From assembly GCA_020062545.1 (NCBI GenBank), contig JAGUWD010000007.1, positions 248,001 to 312,000 on the forward strand: 64,000 bases of DNA. The letters are read 5' to 3'. How positions within the stretch are numbered: the first letter of the stretch is position 1; the number at the start of each line of letters is the position of its first letter. This DNA comes from Thermodesulfovibrionales bacterium (GTDB lineage: Bacteria > Nitrospirota > Thermodesulfovibrionia > Thermodesulfovibrionales > Dissulfurispiraceae). Under the pieces are notes generated by a model. That model was not told where the DNA came from. It did not search any database and saw only the letters and a list, made by a program, of their open reading frames with translations. Positions 4,899 through 39,792 of the stretch are shown in pieces. Made by a program: the position numbers and the translations under genes.

Positions 4899-6476
4899 AT
4901 GCAAACCATTGATACAGATTTCCTTGTCATCGGCAGCGGCGTTGCAGGGCTTAGGGCAGCTATAGAGCTTGCCCGGCACGGCAGGGTTACTGTTGTTACT
5001 AAAGACATCCCCACAGAAAGCAGCACAGAGTATGCACAGGGAGGGGTAGCAGTTGTACTGAGCGATGAAGACGAAGTAGGCATCCACTTCGAAGATACCA
5101 TAAAGGCAGGCGATGGCCTCTGCAAGGAAGAAGCAGTAAGGGTGCTCGTGGAAGAAGGTCCTGCAAGAATCCTTGAGCTTATAGAGTGGGGTGCGGAGTT
5201 TGACAAGGAAGGGACAAAGCTTTCCTTTACCATGGAGGCAGCACATTCGAGGCGCAGGATACTTCATGCCCACGGAGACTCTACAGGCAGGGAACTGGAA
5301 AGAGTGCTTATAAATAAGGTCAGAACATTCAAAAATATACAGAGACTTCAATTTTGCACGGCAATCGACCTTATTGTTGAAGATGAAAGATGTCTCGGGG
5401 CATATGCATTAAAAGACGGCGATATTATTGCTGTTCATGCGAAGGCAACATTGCTGGCAACAGGAGGCGCAGGGCAGGTGTTTTCGAGGACAACAAATCC
5501 TGCTGTTGCTACAGGAGACGGCATGGCTATTGCGTTCAGAGCAAGAGCTATTCTTGAAGATATGGAGTTTGTGCAGTTTCATCCCACCGTGCTTTTTGCG
5601 CCGGCTGCCCCGCAGTTTCTATTGAGCGAGGCAATGAGAGGGGAAGGAGCAATTCTGAGAAATATATTTAAAGAGCCGTTTATGAAGAACTACCATTCAG
5701 ATGCAGAGCTTGCGCCGAGGGATGTGGTCTCGAGGGCGATTATATCGGAGATGGTCAGGACAAACAGCAGCCATGTATATCTCGATCTCACGCACAAGGA
5801 TGCAGAATTCGTTAAGAAAAGATTTCCGAGGATTTATTCCACGTGCCTTCAGTACGACCTGAACATAACAAAGGATTTGATACCTGTTTCCCCGGCAGCC
5901 CATTACATGATGGGTGGTGTGAAAACAGACCTCGATGGTGCAACAAATATTGCGGGATTGTATGCAGCAGGAGAGGTCGCATGCACAGGCGTTCACGGCG
6001 CAAACAGGCTTGCAAGCAACAGCCTCCTTGAAGGGCTTGTGTATGGATACAGGGCAGGAGTTGCCGCTGCAGAGTTCAGAGTTCAGAGTTCGGAGTTAAG
6101 AGTAAAAAAAGATTTAAAAGTCCTAAACTCTAAACCCATGACTCTAAACTCTCATGGATTTGATCTGGAAGAGGTGAGAACATCGCTCAGGAGGCTAATG
6201 TGGGAAAAGGTCGGGATAATAAGGTGCGGCGTTTCTCTTAATGAGGCAATGGAGCGATTATCGGAGTGGAAGCATATACTCGAAATGGATTTCAATACGA
6301 GGCGCAGGCTTGAGTTAAAGAACATGCTAACAGTTGCATGTATGATTACAGAGGCGGCGCTGGAGAGAAAGGGGAGCGTCGGAGCGCACTACAGGTCTGA
6401 CTTTAAAGAAAGAGGAGAGAACTGGCAGAGGCATATAAGGGTTAGAAAAACAGAGAAAGGATTGAAGGTGTCGTAA
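4899..6476 (+). CDS. nadB: L-aspartate oxidase
   Basis: A 525-residue flavoenzyme oxidising aspartate to iminoaspartate, the first step of de novo NAD synthesis; in anaerobes fumarate replaces oxygen. FAD-binding GSGVAGLRAAIEL is at residues 12-24; the substrate-site motifs STEYAQGG, HAHGDSTGRELERVL, and the C-terminal flavin motif AAGEVACTGVHGANRLASNS are all intact. Between the flavin domain and the helical C-terminal domain (about residues 391-419) lies an in-frame insertion made of GAGTT-type word repeats (see repeat at 6071). Soluble, ends one base before pyk begins. Confidence 0.96.
   Translation: MQTIDTDFLVIGSGVAGLRAAIELARHGRVTVVTKDIPTESSTEYAQGGVAVVLSDEDEVGIHFEDTIKAGDGLCKEEAVRVLVEEGPARILELIEWGAEFDKEGTKLSFTMEAAHSRRRILHAHGDSTGRELERVLINKVRTFKNIQRLQFCTAIDLIVEDERCLGAYALKDGDIIAVHAKATLLATGGAGQVFSRTTNPAVATGDGMAIAFRARAILEDMEFVQFHPTVLFAPAAPQFLLSEAMRGEGAILRNIFKEPFMKNYHSDAELAPRDVVSRAIISEMVRTNSSHVYLDLTHKDAEFVKKRFPRIYSTCLQYDLNITKDLIPVSPAAHYMMGGVKTDLDGATNIAGLYAAGEVACTGVHGANRLASNSLLEGLVYGYRAGVAAAEFRVQSSELRVKKDLKVLNSKPMTLNSHGFDLEEVRTSLRRLMWEKVGIIRCGVSLNEAMERLSEWKHILEMDFNTRRRLELKNMLTVACMITEAALERKGSVGAHYRSDFKERGENWQRHIRVRKTEKGLKVS
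6071..6155 (+). repeat. word-repeat palindromic element inside nadB
   Basis: Four degenerate copies of a GAGTTCA-type word (6071-6106) are followed after about 15 bases by AAACTCTAAAC-type copies of its complement (6122-6155), forming a long imperfect stem. It adds roughly 28 codons without breaking the frame. The same words occur at 25392 inside oppF and, as a single arm, at 11421 at the start of tyrA. Confidence 0.8.
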
Positions 6477-12309: not shown

Positions 12310-13635
12310 ATGGAAATCGCAGAACTAACAAAGGCAAATTACTTAAAAGGCGAGATAACCCCTCCTCCTGATAAATCCATTTCCCACAGGGCAATTATGT
12401 TTGCCTCCATCGCAGAAGGTAAAAGCATTGTCAAAAATTTTCTCAAAGCAGAAGACCCCATAAGCACCACGAATGCATTCAGGATGATGGGAATCGAGAT
12501 AGAAGAGAAAGCTGGCAATGAACTTGTTATTCATGGCAAAGGACTATATGGCCTTAAAGAGCCGTTTGATGTCATAGACTGCGGAAATTCAGGAACGACT
12601 GTGAGACTCATATCAGGGATACTCTCAGGAAATCCATTTTTCTCTGTTCTTACCGGGGATGATTCTTTAAAACAGAGGCCTATGGCAAGGGTCATTAATC
12701 CTTTAAAAGAGATGGGAGCGGATATCTCTGCAAGGGATGCTGATAAATATCTTCCCATGGCGATTAAAGGCAAAGTGCTTAAGGCAATAAATTACAATAT
12801 GCCGATTGCATCGGCACAGGTGAAGTCATGTCTGATACTGGCAGGACTATATGCAGATGGCACAACCATTATCACAGAGCCTCAGAAATCCAGGGATCAT
12901 ACAGAGAGGATGCTCATGGCAATGGGTGCGGAGATAAGAACAGACAACAGAAGACAGACAACAGAAGACAGACAAAATTTAATAGAAGTAAAAAGTATGC
13001 GTGATAAAAAATTAAATCCAATTGATATAACAGTTCCATCTGATTTTTCGTCTGCTGCGTTTTTTATTGCAGGCGCATTGATCGTTCCCGATTCAGAAAT
13101 CTCAGTCAGAAACGTCTGTATAAATCCAACAAGAACAGGTTTGCTCGATGTAATTAAAAATATGGGCGGAGATGTAAGGGTTGAAAATATGAGGGATGTC
13201 TCCGGAGAACCGGTCGCGGATATATATTGCGAAAGTGCAGGCAGTTTAAAGGCAGTTAAAATAAGCGGAGATATTATGCCTTCTCTTATAGATGAATTCC
13301 CGATACTCTGTGTTCTCGCAACACAGGCAGATGGAGTTACAGAGATACGAGGCGCTGAGGAGTTAAGGGTAAAAGAATCTGACAGGATAAAGGCTATGGC
13401 AACGGAACTTAAAAAGTTGGGCGTTGAGCTCGAGGAATATCCTGACGGCATTTCAATTAAAGGCAAGGCATCTTTAAAAGGCGCTACAGTAGAGAGTTAT
13501 CACGATCATAGAATAGCCATGTCCCTCGCAATTGCTGCACTTGTTGCAGAAGGCACAACGACAATAAATAATGCAGAATGCGTTGACATATCATTCCCGG
13601 GATTTTTTGAGGAATTGAAGAGAATAACAGGCTGA
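12310..13635 (+). CDS. aroA: 5-enolpyruvylshikimate-3-phosphate synthase
   Basis: A 441-residue EPSP synthase, two inside-out alpha/beta domains. Motifs: PPDKSISHRAIMFAS (19-33), DCGNSGTTVRLISG (about 90), RDHTERMLMAMGA (about 196), VPSDFSSAAFF and KESDRIKAMATELKKLG. The LISG and NSGTT-type sequence groups it with ordinary class I/II enzymes; I do not assign glyphosate class. About ten extra residues (TDNRRQTTEDRQ) come from a 14-bp tandem repeat at 12938. Last gene of the aromatic operon; the region after it is accessory. Confidence 0.96.
   Translation: MEIAELTKANYLKGEITPPPDKSISHRAIMFASIAEGKSIVKNFLKAEDPISTTNAFRMMGIEIEEKAGNELVIHGKGLYGLKEPFDVIDCGNSGTTVRLISGILSGNPFFSVLTGDDSLKQRPMARVINPLKEMGADISARDADKYLPMAIKGKVLKAINYNMPIASAQVKSCLILAGLYADGTTIITEPQKSRDHTERMLMAMGAEIRTDNRRQTTEDRQNLIEVKSMRDKKLNPIDITVPSDFSSAAFFIAGALIVPDSEISVRNVCINPTRTGLLDVIKNMGGDVRVENMRDVSGEPVADIYCESAGSLKAVKISGDIMPSLIDEFPILCVLATQADGVTEIRGAEELRVKESDRIKAMATELKKLGVELEEYPDGISIKGKASLKGATVESYHDHRIAMSLAIAALVAEGTTTINNAECVDISFPGFFEELKRITG
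12938..12978 (+). repeat. 14-bp tandem repeat inside aroA
   Basis: About 2.7 copies of ACAGACAACAGAAG in tandem, within the coding sequence and in frame. It encodes the hydrophilic TDNRRQTTEDRQ loop, in a surface position between two beta-alpha units of EPSP synthase. Confidence 0.85.
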
Positions 13636-27722: not shown

Positions 27723-28307
27723 TTACAGCAGGGCTTCTATCTCTTTTATTATATCGGGGTCTGTCCAGTCCTGCTCTCCGAAGTATTTTTCAACAATGAC
27801 CCCTTTTCTGTCGATGAGAAAGGTCGTGGGCATCATAAAGACTTTATATAGAGAACGCGAGACAGAGAGGTTGTAGTCCACAACTACGGTGAAAGCAACA
27901 GGATTCTTCTTGAGGAAATCCTTTACATCCACCACTGCCCTGTCTGTGGAGACTGCAAGTATTACCAGCCCTCTGTTTTTCAGCATCTGCTGGAGTTTGT
28001 TCATTGACGGGATCTCTGCCCTGCACGGGGGACACCACGTTGCCCAGAAGTTCAGGAGCACTACCTTGCCTTTGAATGAGGAAAGGGATACAGGATTCCC
28101 GTTAATATCCTTCAGGGTAAAATCCGGGGCCTTCTGCCCCGAAAGCTTTTCGACAGCATAAGGAGAAGGAGGCTGGGCATGACTTTTAGTGACCAGTGAC
28201 CAGTAACCAGCGACCAGTAAAAGAACAAATAATAGAATTTTGATTATTTTTTTAGACTGGCCACTGTCCACTGTCCACTGCCTATTGTCTTTAGATGATT
28301 TTTGCAC
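27723..28307 (-). CDS. resA: TlpA/ResA-type thiol-disulfide oxidoreductase
   Basis: A 194-residue periplasmic thioredoxin-fold protein, likely membrane-tethered, reducing apocytochrome c heme sites. NFWATWCPPCRAEIPSM holds the redox pair; KAPDFTLKDINGNPVSLSSFKGK is the family's entry strand. The N-terminal 40 residues, including the hydrophobic signal segment (IIKILLFVLLLVAGYWSLV), are largely encoded by a word-repeat palindromic element. Overlaps the end of dapA by 17 bases. A role in maturation of the multiheme cytochrome and other c-type cytochromes is plausible. Confidence 0.92.
   Translation of the reverse strand: MQKSSKDNRQWTVDSGQSKKIIKILLFVLLLVAGYWSLVTKSHAQPPSPYAVEKLSGQKAPDFTLKDINGNPVSLSSFKGKVVLLNFWATWCPPCRAEIPSMNKLQQMLKNRGLVILAVSTDRAVVDVKDFLKKNPVAFTVVVDYNLSVSRSLYKVFMMPTTFLIDRKGVIVEKYFGEQDWTDPDIIKEIEALL
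28188..28288. repeat. word-repeat palindromic element forming resA signal region
   Basis: Left arm: five near copies of AGTGACC / AGTAACC (28188-28220). Right arm: ACTGGCCACTGTCCACTGTCCACTG-type copies (28255-28282). Both arms are translated, in the minus direction, as the n-region and h-region of the ResA signal sequence. Confidence 0.8.
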
Positions 28308-36241: not shown

Positions 36242-36303
36242 GTAGTGGATATTATTATGAACGGAGTATTAGAATAAAAAAGTTTTAAATGAGGAGGAAA
36301 GGT

Positions 36304-36993
36304 ATGGTTTTCAATACTTGTAAAAAGTTTATTCAGATAACTGTCTTATTGTTTTTTGTTGCAGCAATTATTGCATCTGCAAAAGAGCTATATGCAGATG
36401 AACTTAATATTGATAAGTTAATAATGGATATCCAGGACAATGACTGGTATAGCCGTTTGCCGTTATACGGGGGTGCAGAGGGCATAAAGAATGACAGGCT
36501 GACAGACGCCCTTATCGGTATGGTAGAAAACAAGATGCTGAACTGGAGATACAGGATAAGGGCAATCCAGCTTCTTGGCGAGAGCAAAAAGGACAAGGCA
36601 CTCAATTTCCTCGGGCGGATACTAAGCGACCCGTTCCTTAACCATGACTGCCCTGCCATAAAGTGGAATGCGGTCACTGCCCTCGGCAATTTTACTAAAG
36701 ACCAGAAGGCAGCCGATATACTCCTCGATGCATCGAAGTTTGAGGACAACCCGGTGGTCAGAGAGGCCATTGTCAAAACCATGGGAAGGGTTGGCAGTTC
36801 AAAGGCTGTACCGTTCTTGATTTCTATCCTAAACGATAAGAGTTTTGCGATAAAGTTCAGTGCTATAAATGCCCTTGCAGAAATCGGAGACCCGCAGGCA
36901 TTCCCCTATCTAAAAAATATTGTGGAGAATGAAAACGATCCTCTCATAAAGAATGAAGCCATTACAGCTCTCGAGAGGTTCTCCAGGGGATAA
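36304..36993 (+). CDS. exported HEAT-repeat protein
   Basis: A 229-residue secreted protein: signal peptide about 1-28 (FIQITVLLFFVAAIIASAKELYA) and then five HEAT-like repeats with the A-V/I-x-A-L-G-x-I-x-D pattern. AGGAGG is eight bases before ATG 36304; the ATG at 36289 overlaps that site and is not used. A central SDPFLNHDCPAIKWNAVTALGNF is nearly repeated in the next gene, so the two are tandem paralogues. Likely a periplasmic scaffold. Confidence 0.85.
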   Translation: MVFNTCKKFIQITVLLFFVAAIIASAKELYADELNIDKLIMDIQDNDWYSRLPLYGGAEGIKNDRLTDALIGMVENKMLNWRYRIRAIQLLGESKKDKALNFLGRILSDPFLNHDCPAIKWNAVTALGNFTKDQKAADILLDASKFEDNPVVREAIVKTMGRVGSSKAVPFLISILNDKSFAIKFSAINALAEIGDPQAFPYLKNIVENENDPLIKNEAITALERFSRG

Positions 36994-36999
36994 ATCACT

Positions 37000-37707
37000 G
37001 TGCTTTACTACCAGAAGTCAAAAGATAGAAGACAGAAGCCAGACAGTTTATCCTTTGTGTTCTGTATTCTGTGTTCCGCGTTCTGTTTTCTGGTCGTCTC
37101 TCAAGGTCATGCGGCGCCTCATGATATCGATAAATTACTGGTAAAGCTCCGGCATGATGACCCTAAAATCCGTTTGTCAGCAATGGAACAATTGGGCAGG
37201 ATTGGAGATGATGATTCTGTGAGGGCACTCATGAGCGTCATCGAAAATCAAGGTGAGGATTGGAAGATTCAGATTAGAGCAGTAAAGCTGCTGGCTGAAA
37301 TTAAAAATCCCAGGGCAGTAGACTTATTAATAAAAGTATTGGATGACCCGTTCTTTACCTATGACTGTCCTGCATTGAAATGGAATGCTGCCCTTGCCCT
37401 TGGTAATTTCAAAAACTATTCAAAGGTGGTGGATGTGCTGATAGATGCATTAACAGATAAGACATTATATGTGCGGGAGGCAGCAATACAGTCCCTCGGC
37501 GAGATTGGCAATAGAAAGGCCGTGCCATATTTGATTTCTGCATTAAACGCTAAGAGCTTTGCAATCAGGATAAGTGCGATAATGGCGCTTGGGAAAATCG
37601 GGGATGGGGCAGCGATCCCCTTTGTAAAGCGGGTTTTGGATAATGATACAGATCCACACATAAGGGATGAGGCTGTGAAGGCATTGAGAAGATTAAATGC
37701 GAATTAG
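37000..37707 (+). CDS. exported HEAT-repeat protein with repeat-derived signal peptide
   Basis: A 235-residue paralogue of the preceding gene (shared DDPFFTYDCPALKWNAALALGNF core) with five to six HEAT repeats. GTG start at 37000. The first 35 residues form a signal peptide: a basic n-region (KSKDRRQK), a hydrophobic stretch FVFCILCSAFCFLVV and a GHAA cleavage site. This whole segment is encoded by a two-armed word repeat (37011-37093), quite unlike the signal peptide of its sister gene. Confidence 0.82.
   Translation: MLYYQKSKDRRQKPDSLSFVFCILCSAFCFLVVSQGHAAPHDIDKLLVKLRHDDPKIRLSAMEQLGRIGDDDSVRALMSVIENQGEDWKIQIRAVKLLAEIKNPRAVDLLIKVLDDPFFTYDCPALKWNAALALGNFKNYSKVVDVLIDALTDKTLYVREAAIQSLGEIGNRKAVPYLISALNAKSFAIRISAIMALGKIGDGAAIPFVKRVLDNDTDPHIRDEAVKALRRLNAN
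37011..37093 (+). repeat. word-repeat palindromic element encoding a signal peptide
   Basis: Left arm CCAGAAGTCAAAAGATAGAA and AGACAGAAG-type copies (37011-37046); right arm TTCTGTATTCTGTGTTCCGC and TTCTGTTTTCTGG copies (37059-37093). The purine-rich arm reads as Lys/Arg codons and the pyrimidine-rich arm as Phe/Cys/Leu codons. Confidence 0.85.
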
Positions 37708-38970: not shown

Positions 38971-39792
38971 TCAAAGGGCTTTTATATTTGATACAAATTT
39001 TAAAATAGCTTTATTCCAGCCATCCGGTCCGATGCCATCAGCTTTTATCAAATTGGGCATGTCTATTTTGTGGTTATAACTTCCATCCGGCTTCTGAACG
39101 ATTATCGGATAATCGACTTTTTCAAGCATCGGTATATCATTGGGACTGTCGCCAATGGCAATGGTCAAGATTTCGCCTAATTTTTTTTTGTATATATCGA
39201 TTAAAATGGACACCGCCTTTCCCTTGTCGCTGTCTCCGAGGATATGGAAAAATCTTCCCTGAGTATAATTGAATCCTTTTGAGATGATGGCTTCTAAAAG
39301 TTTTTGCTCATCTCTTTCACTGCCATTAAAAATAAATGGCTCATCAAAATCTCTTTCTTTTGCCATACTTGCCTCATCAAGGCTCATATTTGCTATTTCT
39401 GCAAGCTCTTCTACCGTCATATCCCCGAAACCTTTCACATTAAAACCCTCATTTTGTAACTCTTTTATCGCATCTCTTAGATCAGAATATCTTGCACCAA
39501 GCCTGATAACATGATAATCGCCATTTTCCTCAGATTTGAAATTTGAAATTTGAAATTTGAAATACTCCATGGGTATATATATCCCTCCACCGTTCTCCGA
39601 TATGAAGGGGTGATGGTTGCCGAGTTTCCTCCTGTAATACTCTATCTCCTTTCTTGTCTTGCTTGAACAGATTACGAGGGGGATATTTTTTTCTTTCAGC
39701 AATGTAAGTGCAGGCAATGCCTTTTCAAAAGAGTAGGTGTAATGGTCAAGGAGTGTACCGTCAAGGTCTGTGAAGATAATGAGTCTTTTCAT
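38971..39792 (-). CDS. mpgP: mannosyl/glucosyl-3-phosphoglycerate phosphatase
   Basis: A 273-residue HAD phosphatase of the MpgP type (Cof-like, subclass IIB): FTDLDGTLLDHYTYSFEKA with the nucleophile Asp, SSKTRKEIEYYRRKLG, and GDSPNDIPMLEKVDYPIIV. Known MpgP enzymes dephosphorylate mannosyl- and glucosyl-3-phosphoglycerate. With GpgS nearby it should complete glucosylglycerate synthesis. A short FKFQISNFKSE insertion around residues 77-87 is encoded by a 7-bp tandem repeat. Overlaps gckA by four bases. Confidence 0.92.
   Translation of the reverse strand: MKRLIIFTDLDGTLLDHYTYSFEKALPALTLLKEKNIPLVICSSKTRKEIEYYRRKLGNHHPFISENGGGIYIPMEYFKFQISNFKSEENGDYHVIRLGARYSDLRDAIKELQNEGFNVKGFGDMTVEELAEIANMSLDEASMAKERDFDEPFIFNGSERDEQKLLEAIISKGFNYTQGRFFHILGDSDKGKAVSILIDIYKKKLGEILTIAIGDSPNDIPMLEKVDYPIIVQKPDGSYNHKIDMPNLIKADGIGPDGWNKAILKFVSNIKAL
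39534..39561. repeat. four perfect tandem copies of ATTTGAA inside mpgP
   Basis: A 7-bp unit repeated four times, followed by ATAC. Located between conserved MpgP segments. Because 28 is not a multiple of three, changes in copy number would shift the frame, so it is a candidate phase-variable site. Confidence 0.9.

Follow-up and report, generated by a model that had tools for sequence, protein, structure and literature searches.

In a 64,000-nucleotide stretch of the genome of a Thermodesulfovibrionales bacterium (family Dissulfurispiraceae), here called the window, a gene for a HEAT-repeat protein opens with a palindrome of seven-nucleotide words that lies within the sequence encoding its predicted signal peptide. 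The explanation that we consider quite probable is that inverted arrays of such heptanucleotide words replaced the n- and h-regions of a Sec signal peptide that was present beforehand, and that its c-region was kept, as was the start codon. It draws on a core that is seen to be replaced between conserved flanks, on the recurrence of such palindromes in unrelated exported proteins, and on the logic by which the words are read in frame. The window corresponds to G000:C3:248001-312000, where G000 (2.6 Mb) denotes the genome holding it; G001, G002 and G003 are its congeners, G012 is a relative from the same Genome Taxonomy Database (GTDB) family, and G041 belongs to the same order and another family. 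Genome-wide counts are based on pattern searches together with fetched stretches.

The host gene is an open reading frame (ORF) of the forward strand (37000-37707) that encodes 235 amino acids (Pfam HEAT_2, E=1.2e-56) from a GTG start; 10 nt upstream of the GTG stands a Shine-Dalgarno (SD)-like AGGGG (36985-36989, forward strand), aligned with AGAGG at the matching position of G002. The palindromic word repeat that an earlier note on this DNA had placed at the 5' end of the gene is indeed there, as two arms with a period of 7 nt that together with their spacer (37007-37097) lie wholly inside the ORF. The left, purine arm (37007-37043; words CAGAAGT CAAAAGA TAGAAGA CAGAAGC CAGA) encodes the basic n-region and is separated by 17 nt (37044-37060) from the right, pyrimidine arm (37061-37097; words TCTGTAT TCTGTGT TCCGCGT TCTGTTT TCTG), which encodes the hydrophobic h-region, all on the forward strand; the arm region translates as MLYYQKSKDRRQKPDSLSFVFCILCSAFCFLVV. 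Each arm measures 37 nt, their complementarity is a modest 70%, and the periodic words, of the general form CAGAAGN... / ...TTCTGNN, fill a purine run at 37012-37043 and a pyrimidine run at 37061-37092. With tandem 7-nt units and facing inverted arms, the element is a facing pair of heptameric simple sequence repeats.

The protein so encoded has the features of a Sec signal peptide (basic n-region, h-region of 10-20 residues, small residues at -3/-1), namely an n-region of net charge +3, a 19-residue uncharged stretch and a VSQGHA/A site, the c-region VSQGHAA (37096-37116, forward strand) being common to the G002 orthologues and probably ancestral, with cleavage likely after GHA or HAA. The maximal hydropathy on the Kyte-Doolittle (KD) scale, as KD12, is 2.88 with the element, compared with 2.55 in the G002 version and 3.17 in the tandem paralogue, and the assignment of the left arm to the n-region and of the right arm to the h-region is supported. 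Judging from the sequence, the HEAT protein would be exported by the element-bearing signal peptide. The tandem paralogue (36289-36993, forward strand; an alternative ATG at 36304 is possible) begins with the ordinary and unrelated signal peptide that had been claimed for it, MVFNTCKKFIQITVLLFFVAAIIASAKELYA, which lacks 7-nt periodicity: the lag-7 identity of its signal-peptide DNA is 0.26, as against 0.43 in the element-bearing gene. An internal start at GTG 37055 was ruled out, because it has neither an SD-like motif nor a charged n-region, and because G002 retains both GTG 37000 and the SD context of that start.

What did this site look like without the element? Aligned with the window, the syntenic tandem copy in G002, which reads GAGGATAAATCACTGTGCTCTGCACAAAAGCCTTTAAAAATATGATGGTGTTATATGCCTTATTTTTGATTGTCTCTCAAGGTCATGCAGCG, agrees with it at the paralogue's stop codon, at the SD-like motif, at the GTG start and again from GTCTCTCAAGGTCATGC onward, and differs solely in between. 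It is identical in GGATAAATCACTGTGCT before the core and in GTCTCTCAAGGTCATGC.GCG after it, whereas the protein core is the ordinary MLCTKAFKNMMVLYALFLIVSQGHAA in G002 and MLYYQKSKDRRQKPDSLSFVFCILCSAFCFLVVSQGHAA in the window, which is longer by a net 39 nt with the frame kept. Because pure insertion of a palindrome of ~86 nt would have added more than 39 nt, the core must have been replaced; by this alignment, the palindrome took the place of ~40-50 nt of the n/h core and evidently left the start codon and the c-region where they were. In the orthologue comparison that the earlier note had suggested, the n/h core differs between relatives, and the GTG start and VSQGHAA are conserved in G002.

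This also bears on the claim that the palindrome created the signal peptide, which has to be given up in the sense of creation from nothing, since G002 has at the syntenic site an ordinary signal peptide whose start and c-region are the same. A formerly cytoplasmic protein that owed its signal peptide entirely to the palindrome would fit with the unrelated signal peptide of the tandem paralogue, but signal-peptide-like N-termini are found in all close orthologues (both G002 copies, G001, G003, G041, G015, G024 and others) and the c-region is shared with G002, so that we regard this origin as highly improbable. In G001, G003 and G041, the tandem pair is present and carries a third, unrelated signal peptide; in G003, the mature part is nevertheless 89-97% identical to the window at the DNA level. 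The duplication is therefore older than the element, which bears out the earlier proposal that the element was acquired after it. G002 probably represents the ancestral and G000 the derived state. Two peculiarities of these orthologues should be mentioned. The syntenic HEAT gene of G002 is truncated and continues into a response-regulator-like ORF, a full copy with the same h/c core lying ~19 kb away (L061, L062), and the gene pair of G041 closely matches that of G001 although the two belong to different families, for which transfer or a binning error is possible (L033, L034, L064, L065).

The inverted repeat by itself is weak: its score of 9.5 (shuffle mean 6.6) was reached in 3 of 300 shuffles, and 10 of 160 other segments of the window reached it as well. 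The pattern of two words facing two words, on the other hand, occurs once in the window against a mean of 0.00 in 100 window shuffles, and across G000 the paired-word pattern returned 16 hits, which overlap and belong to 8 places, compared with none for a reversed-pattern control. The rarity beyond chance hence resides in the paired word repeats and not in the complementarity of the arms. An alternative view is that the element acts as an RNA or DNA hairpin (a terminator, a translational control or a nucleoid site) with an incidental coding effect. The inverted arms do stand right after the start codon and can fold (-27 kcal/mol), yet the fold of the sense RNA is unremarkable (z -1.67, or -0.63 with the start region included), the reading frame stays open, and the sister cases land on the signal peptides of exported proteins, which leaves a hairpin role improbable. 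Rfam had no match at the element site.

Why should repeats of this kind encode signal peptides? As 7 is coprime to 3, a tandem 7-nt word is read as the same cycle of seven amino acids whichever frame is used, which makes the coding effect frame-independent rather than tied to the particular frame, as had been assumed. According to a frame table, stop-free words on the purine strand give polar, mildly basic peptides with a net charge of 0 to +3 per heptad (for instance QKSEVRS and QKTEDRR). Hydrophobic peptides of KD 1.2 to 2.7 (FCLLSSV, FCVLCSV) come from the complementary strand, save for words ending in T (26%), with which all frames of the second arm run into a TGA stop. When a signal-peptide-like segment was defined in simulation as an open frame with an h-region of KD at least 2.0 and a charge of at least +1, 9.0% of the frames of word palindromes qualified (17.1% if the second arm had no T-words). 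The share was 3.9% in wordless purine inverted repeats, 1.3% in genomic DNA and 0.3% in palindromes that had been shuffled. The tendency posited in the earlier note, that any biased inverted repeat automatically yields the plan of a signal peptide, is therefore real (9.0% vs 0.3%), although "automatically" goes too far, given the stops from T-words and the 3.9% for wordless repeats.

The same type of palindrome recurs in other exported proteins, which had escaped the earlier note. With one strict pattern, 43 two-armed palindromes were collected from six related genomes, genes and signal peptides being called by a coded rule; 16 passed the signal-peptide rule, 9 lay in the interior of a long frame, and the frames of the other 18 were short or uncertain. 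One of the 16 (L117) was rejected on account of its host, an RNA ligase, leaving 15 of 43. Their hosts are mostly envelope proteins, comprising FlgI, a phosphonate-binding protein (Phosphonate-bd, PhnD-like), two each of OEP/TolC, TolB and TlpA-like proteins, a DPBB+SPOR lipoprotein, SpoIID and TPR lipoproteins, a few of which are orthologues of one another, since TolB, TolC and TlpA are each represented from two genomes. Signal peptides make up ~1% of coding sequence, and 15 of 43 is a strong concentration by rough comparison with that figure rather than with an exact null. In FlgI and TolB, lag-7 identity averages 0.50 in the signal-peptide DNA and 0.24 in the mature part. Beyond these genomes, none of 9 strict palindromes in named contigs of other phyla with CAGAAGT tracts passed the signal-peptide rule. 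Exact CAGAAGT tracts themselves occur in many phyla, frequently in cyanobacteria such as Okeania and Moorena (L161-L278), and the palindromes of G058 form a separate, uniform family of 43 nt, CAGAGGTCAGAAAACTAAGGAAAATTCCGACTTCTGACCTCTG (L151, L154, L157, L160).

A second signal peptide of this type lies in the window itself, in a TlpA-like thioredoxin gene of the reverse strand (27723-28307; words CAGTGGA / CTGGTCA), whose left and right arms lie at 28256-28280 and 28188-28218, both on the reverse strand. Its orthologues in G003 and G012 have the words CAGAAGT / TTCTGTC at the matching place, with the start region and the beginning of the mature part conserved. Likewise, the words in FlgI and TolB differ between species at the same place (TTCTGTC, TTCACTG, TTATCAC, TTCACTA, GTCTACT, ACGCATT). 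Perhaps word palindromes are a generic source of signal-peptide cores, independent of frame and orientation, and in this lineage the n- and h-regions of exported proteins are repeatedly overwritten by new words while start codon and c-region are kept, so that turnover proceeds by repeat replacement and not by point mutation; the case for this broader proposal seems to us evenly balanced.

How might such a concentration come about? A palindrome of 7-nt words tends to read as polar or basic and then hydrophobic in any frame or orientation, and most arrivals of such palindromes in genes would be harmful and removed by selection. If a signal peptide is already in place, however, its charge and hydrophobicity are what chiefly count, and a word palindrome may there be interchangeable with the previous core and survive. 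Selection, and not targeted insertion, would then account for the concentration in signal peptides. Transposition of a mobile palindrome, of the kind of repetitive extragenic palindromic (REP) sequences or miniature inverted-repeat transposable elements (MITEs) and moved by a REP-associated tyrosine transposase (RAYT), has in its favour the many dispersed copies and the Y1 transposase genes (PF01797) in G000 and its relatives. The copies, however, are heterogeneous, varying in words, word number and spacer, and share neither a fixed sequence nor common fixed ends; RAYT counts do not track them (13 RAYT genes and no palindromes in G018, no RAYT gene and 4 hits in G005); and the sole clean comparison, the G002 site, reveals a replacement without target-site duplication, all of which makes a mobile element unlikely.

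Somewhat more credence, if still on the doubtful side, is due to the idea that 7-nt replication slippage makes the words and that signal peptides merely tolerate them, with no element family involved. According to one report (PMC4692102), bacterial genomes contain more heptamer arrays than expected, and slippage over the footprint of the polymerase has been put forward to explain them; in the window, period 7 is found in 7 of 12 tandem arrays. Slippage yields direct repeats, however, and not paired inverted arms made of one word class, for which a template-switch step is needed. With regard to origin, this idea is compatible with replacement of the core by word arrays, and slippage on 7-nt units plus template switching for the facing arm is a reasonable candidate route, conversion and mobility being further conceivable sources of the arrays.

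Several points weigh against replacement by word palindromes. The direction of change, with G002 ancestral and G000 derived, is itself inferred, and the syntenic G002 copy is shortened downstream, so that its signal peptide may be released from selection. The rule-based calls gave one false positive (the RNA ligase L117), and 18 of the 43 palindromes sit in short or uncertain frames. Moreover, FlgI and TolB were not a random choice, having been picked since one member had the element, and in a less biased set of 20 OEP genes lag-7 identity reached at least 0.40 in 3, with a mean of 0.301 as compared with 0.303 at other lags. A word signature universal to signal peptides was rejected on this basis, and the signature concerns a minority of them.

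Word tracts elsewhere in G000 lie mostly within genes and in frame. One-armed tracts in the window are found in genes that by eye resemble nadB (6070-6103, forward strand; VQSSELR) and aroA (12939-12975, forward strand; TDNRRQTTEDR), and a heptamer array lies in frame inside a HAD-type gene (39534-39563). Across G000, one-armed purine tracts give KSEVRSQ-like heptads in the housekeeping enzymes RuvC, homoserine dehydrogenase, DXS, ribonucleotide reductase, KdtA, RibD, ThiD and alanine racemase. Two Pfam domains flank the tract of DXS (525-535; L083) and that of alanine racemase (228-236; L097), and the tract of homoserine dehydrogenase comes just past one (L005).

Known systems share some of these features. 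In Yersinia pestis, the signal peptide predicted for YPO1552 is formed in part by an RU-2 element, which is like the enterobacterial repetitive intergenic consensus (ERIC), and the signal peptides of YPO1552 relatives from other genera are unrelated (Delihas 2007, PMC2759123). The likeness lies in the repeat within a signal peptide and in the unrelated signal peptides of relatives; RU-2, by contrast, is a MITE-like element of fixed sequence and YPO1552 a single case, whereas the window type consists of variable 7-nt words, occurs in many exported proteins and can be compared with an element-free site in a congener. Rickettsia palindromic elements (RPEs) also lie in frame inside unrelated protein-coding genes (PMC10969869), but are families of ~150 bp with a consensus; the window type, of variable heptamers and ~90 nt and from another phylum, is set apart by this description, one class of it forming signal peptides. 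Heptameric arrays have been described, in passages of two reports, as TAACTGA in Beggiatoaceae and cyanobacteria (PMC4679880) and as GGGAATC in Xanthomonas, many of the latter as inverted pairs (PMC4692102). TAACTGA words also read as one heptapeptide cycle, and the Xanthomonas arrays often face each other; in these passages, however, the arrays of Xanthomonas, Nostoc and Beggiatoaceae lie for the most part between genes and are considered as regulatory or with regard to G-quadruplexes, and the passages on heptamer arrays contain no mention of signal peptides. Text searches for the heptapeptides gave no match.

The window offers a concrete and testable route from non-functional repeat DNA to a targeting sequence that works, a syntenic site being available both with the element and without it, and the origin and turnover of signal peptides become open to direct testing. 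Such replacement may explain why in some lineages close orthologues have seemingly unrelated signal peptides, and it may likewise explain odd heptapeptide runs (KSEVRSQ, FCLLSSV) in predicted proteins. In the bacterial family to which the window belongs, simple repeats seem to have supplied the raw material of export signals time and again.
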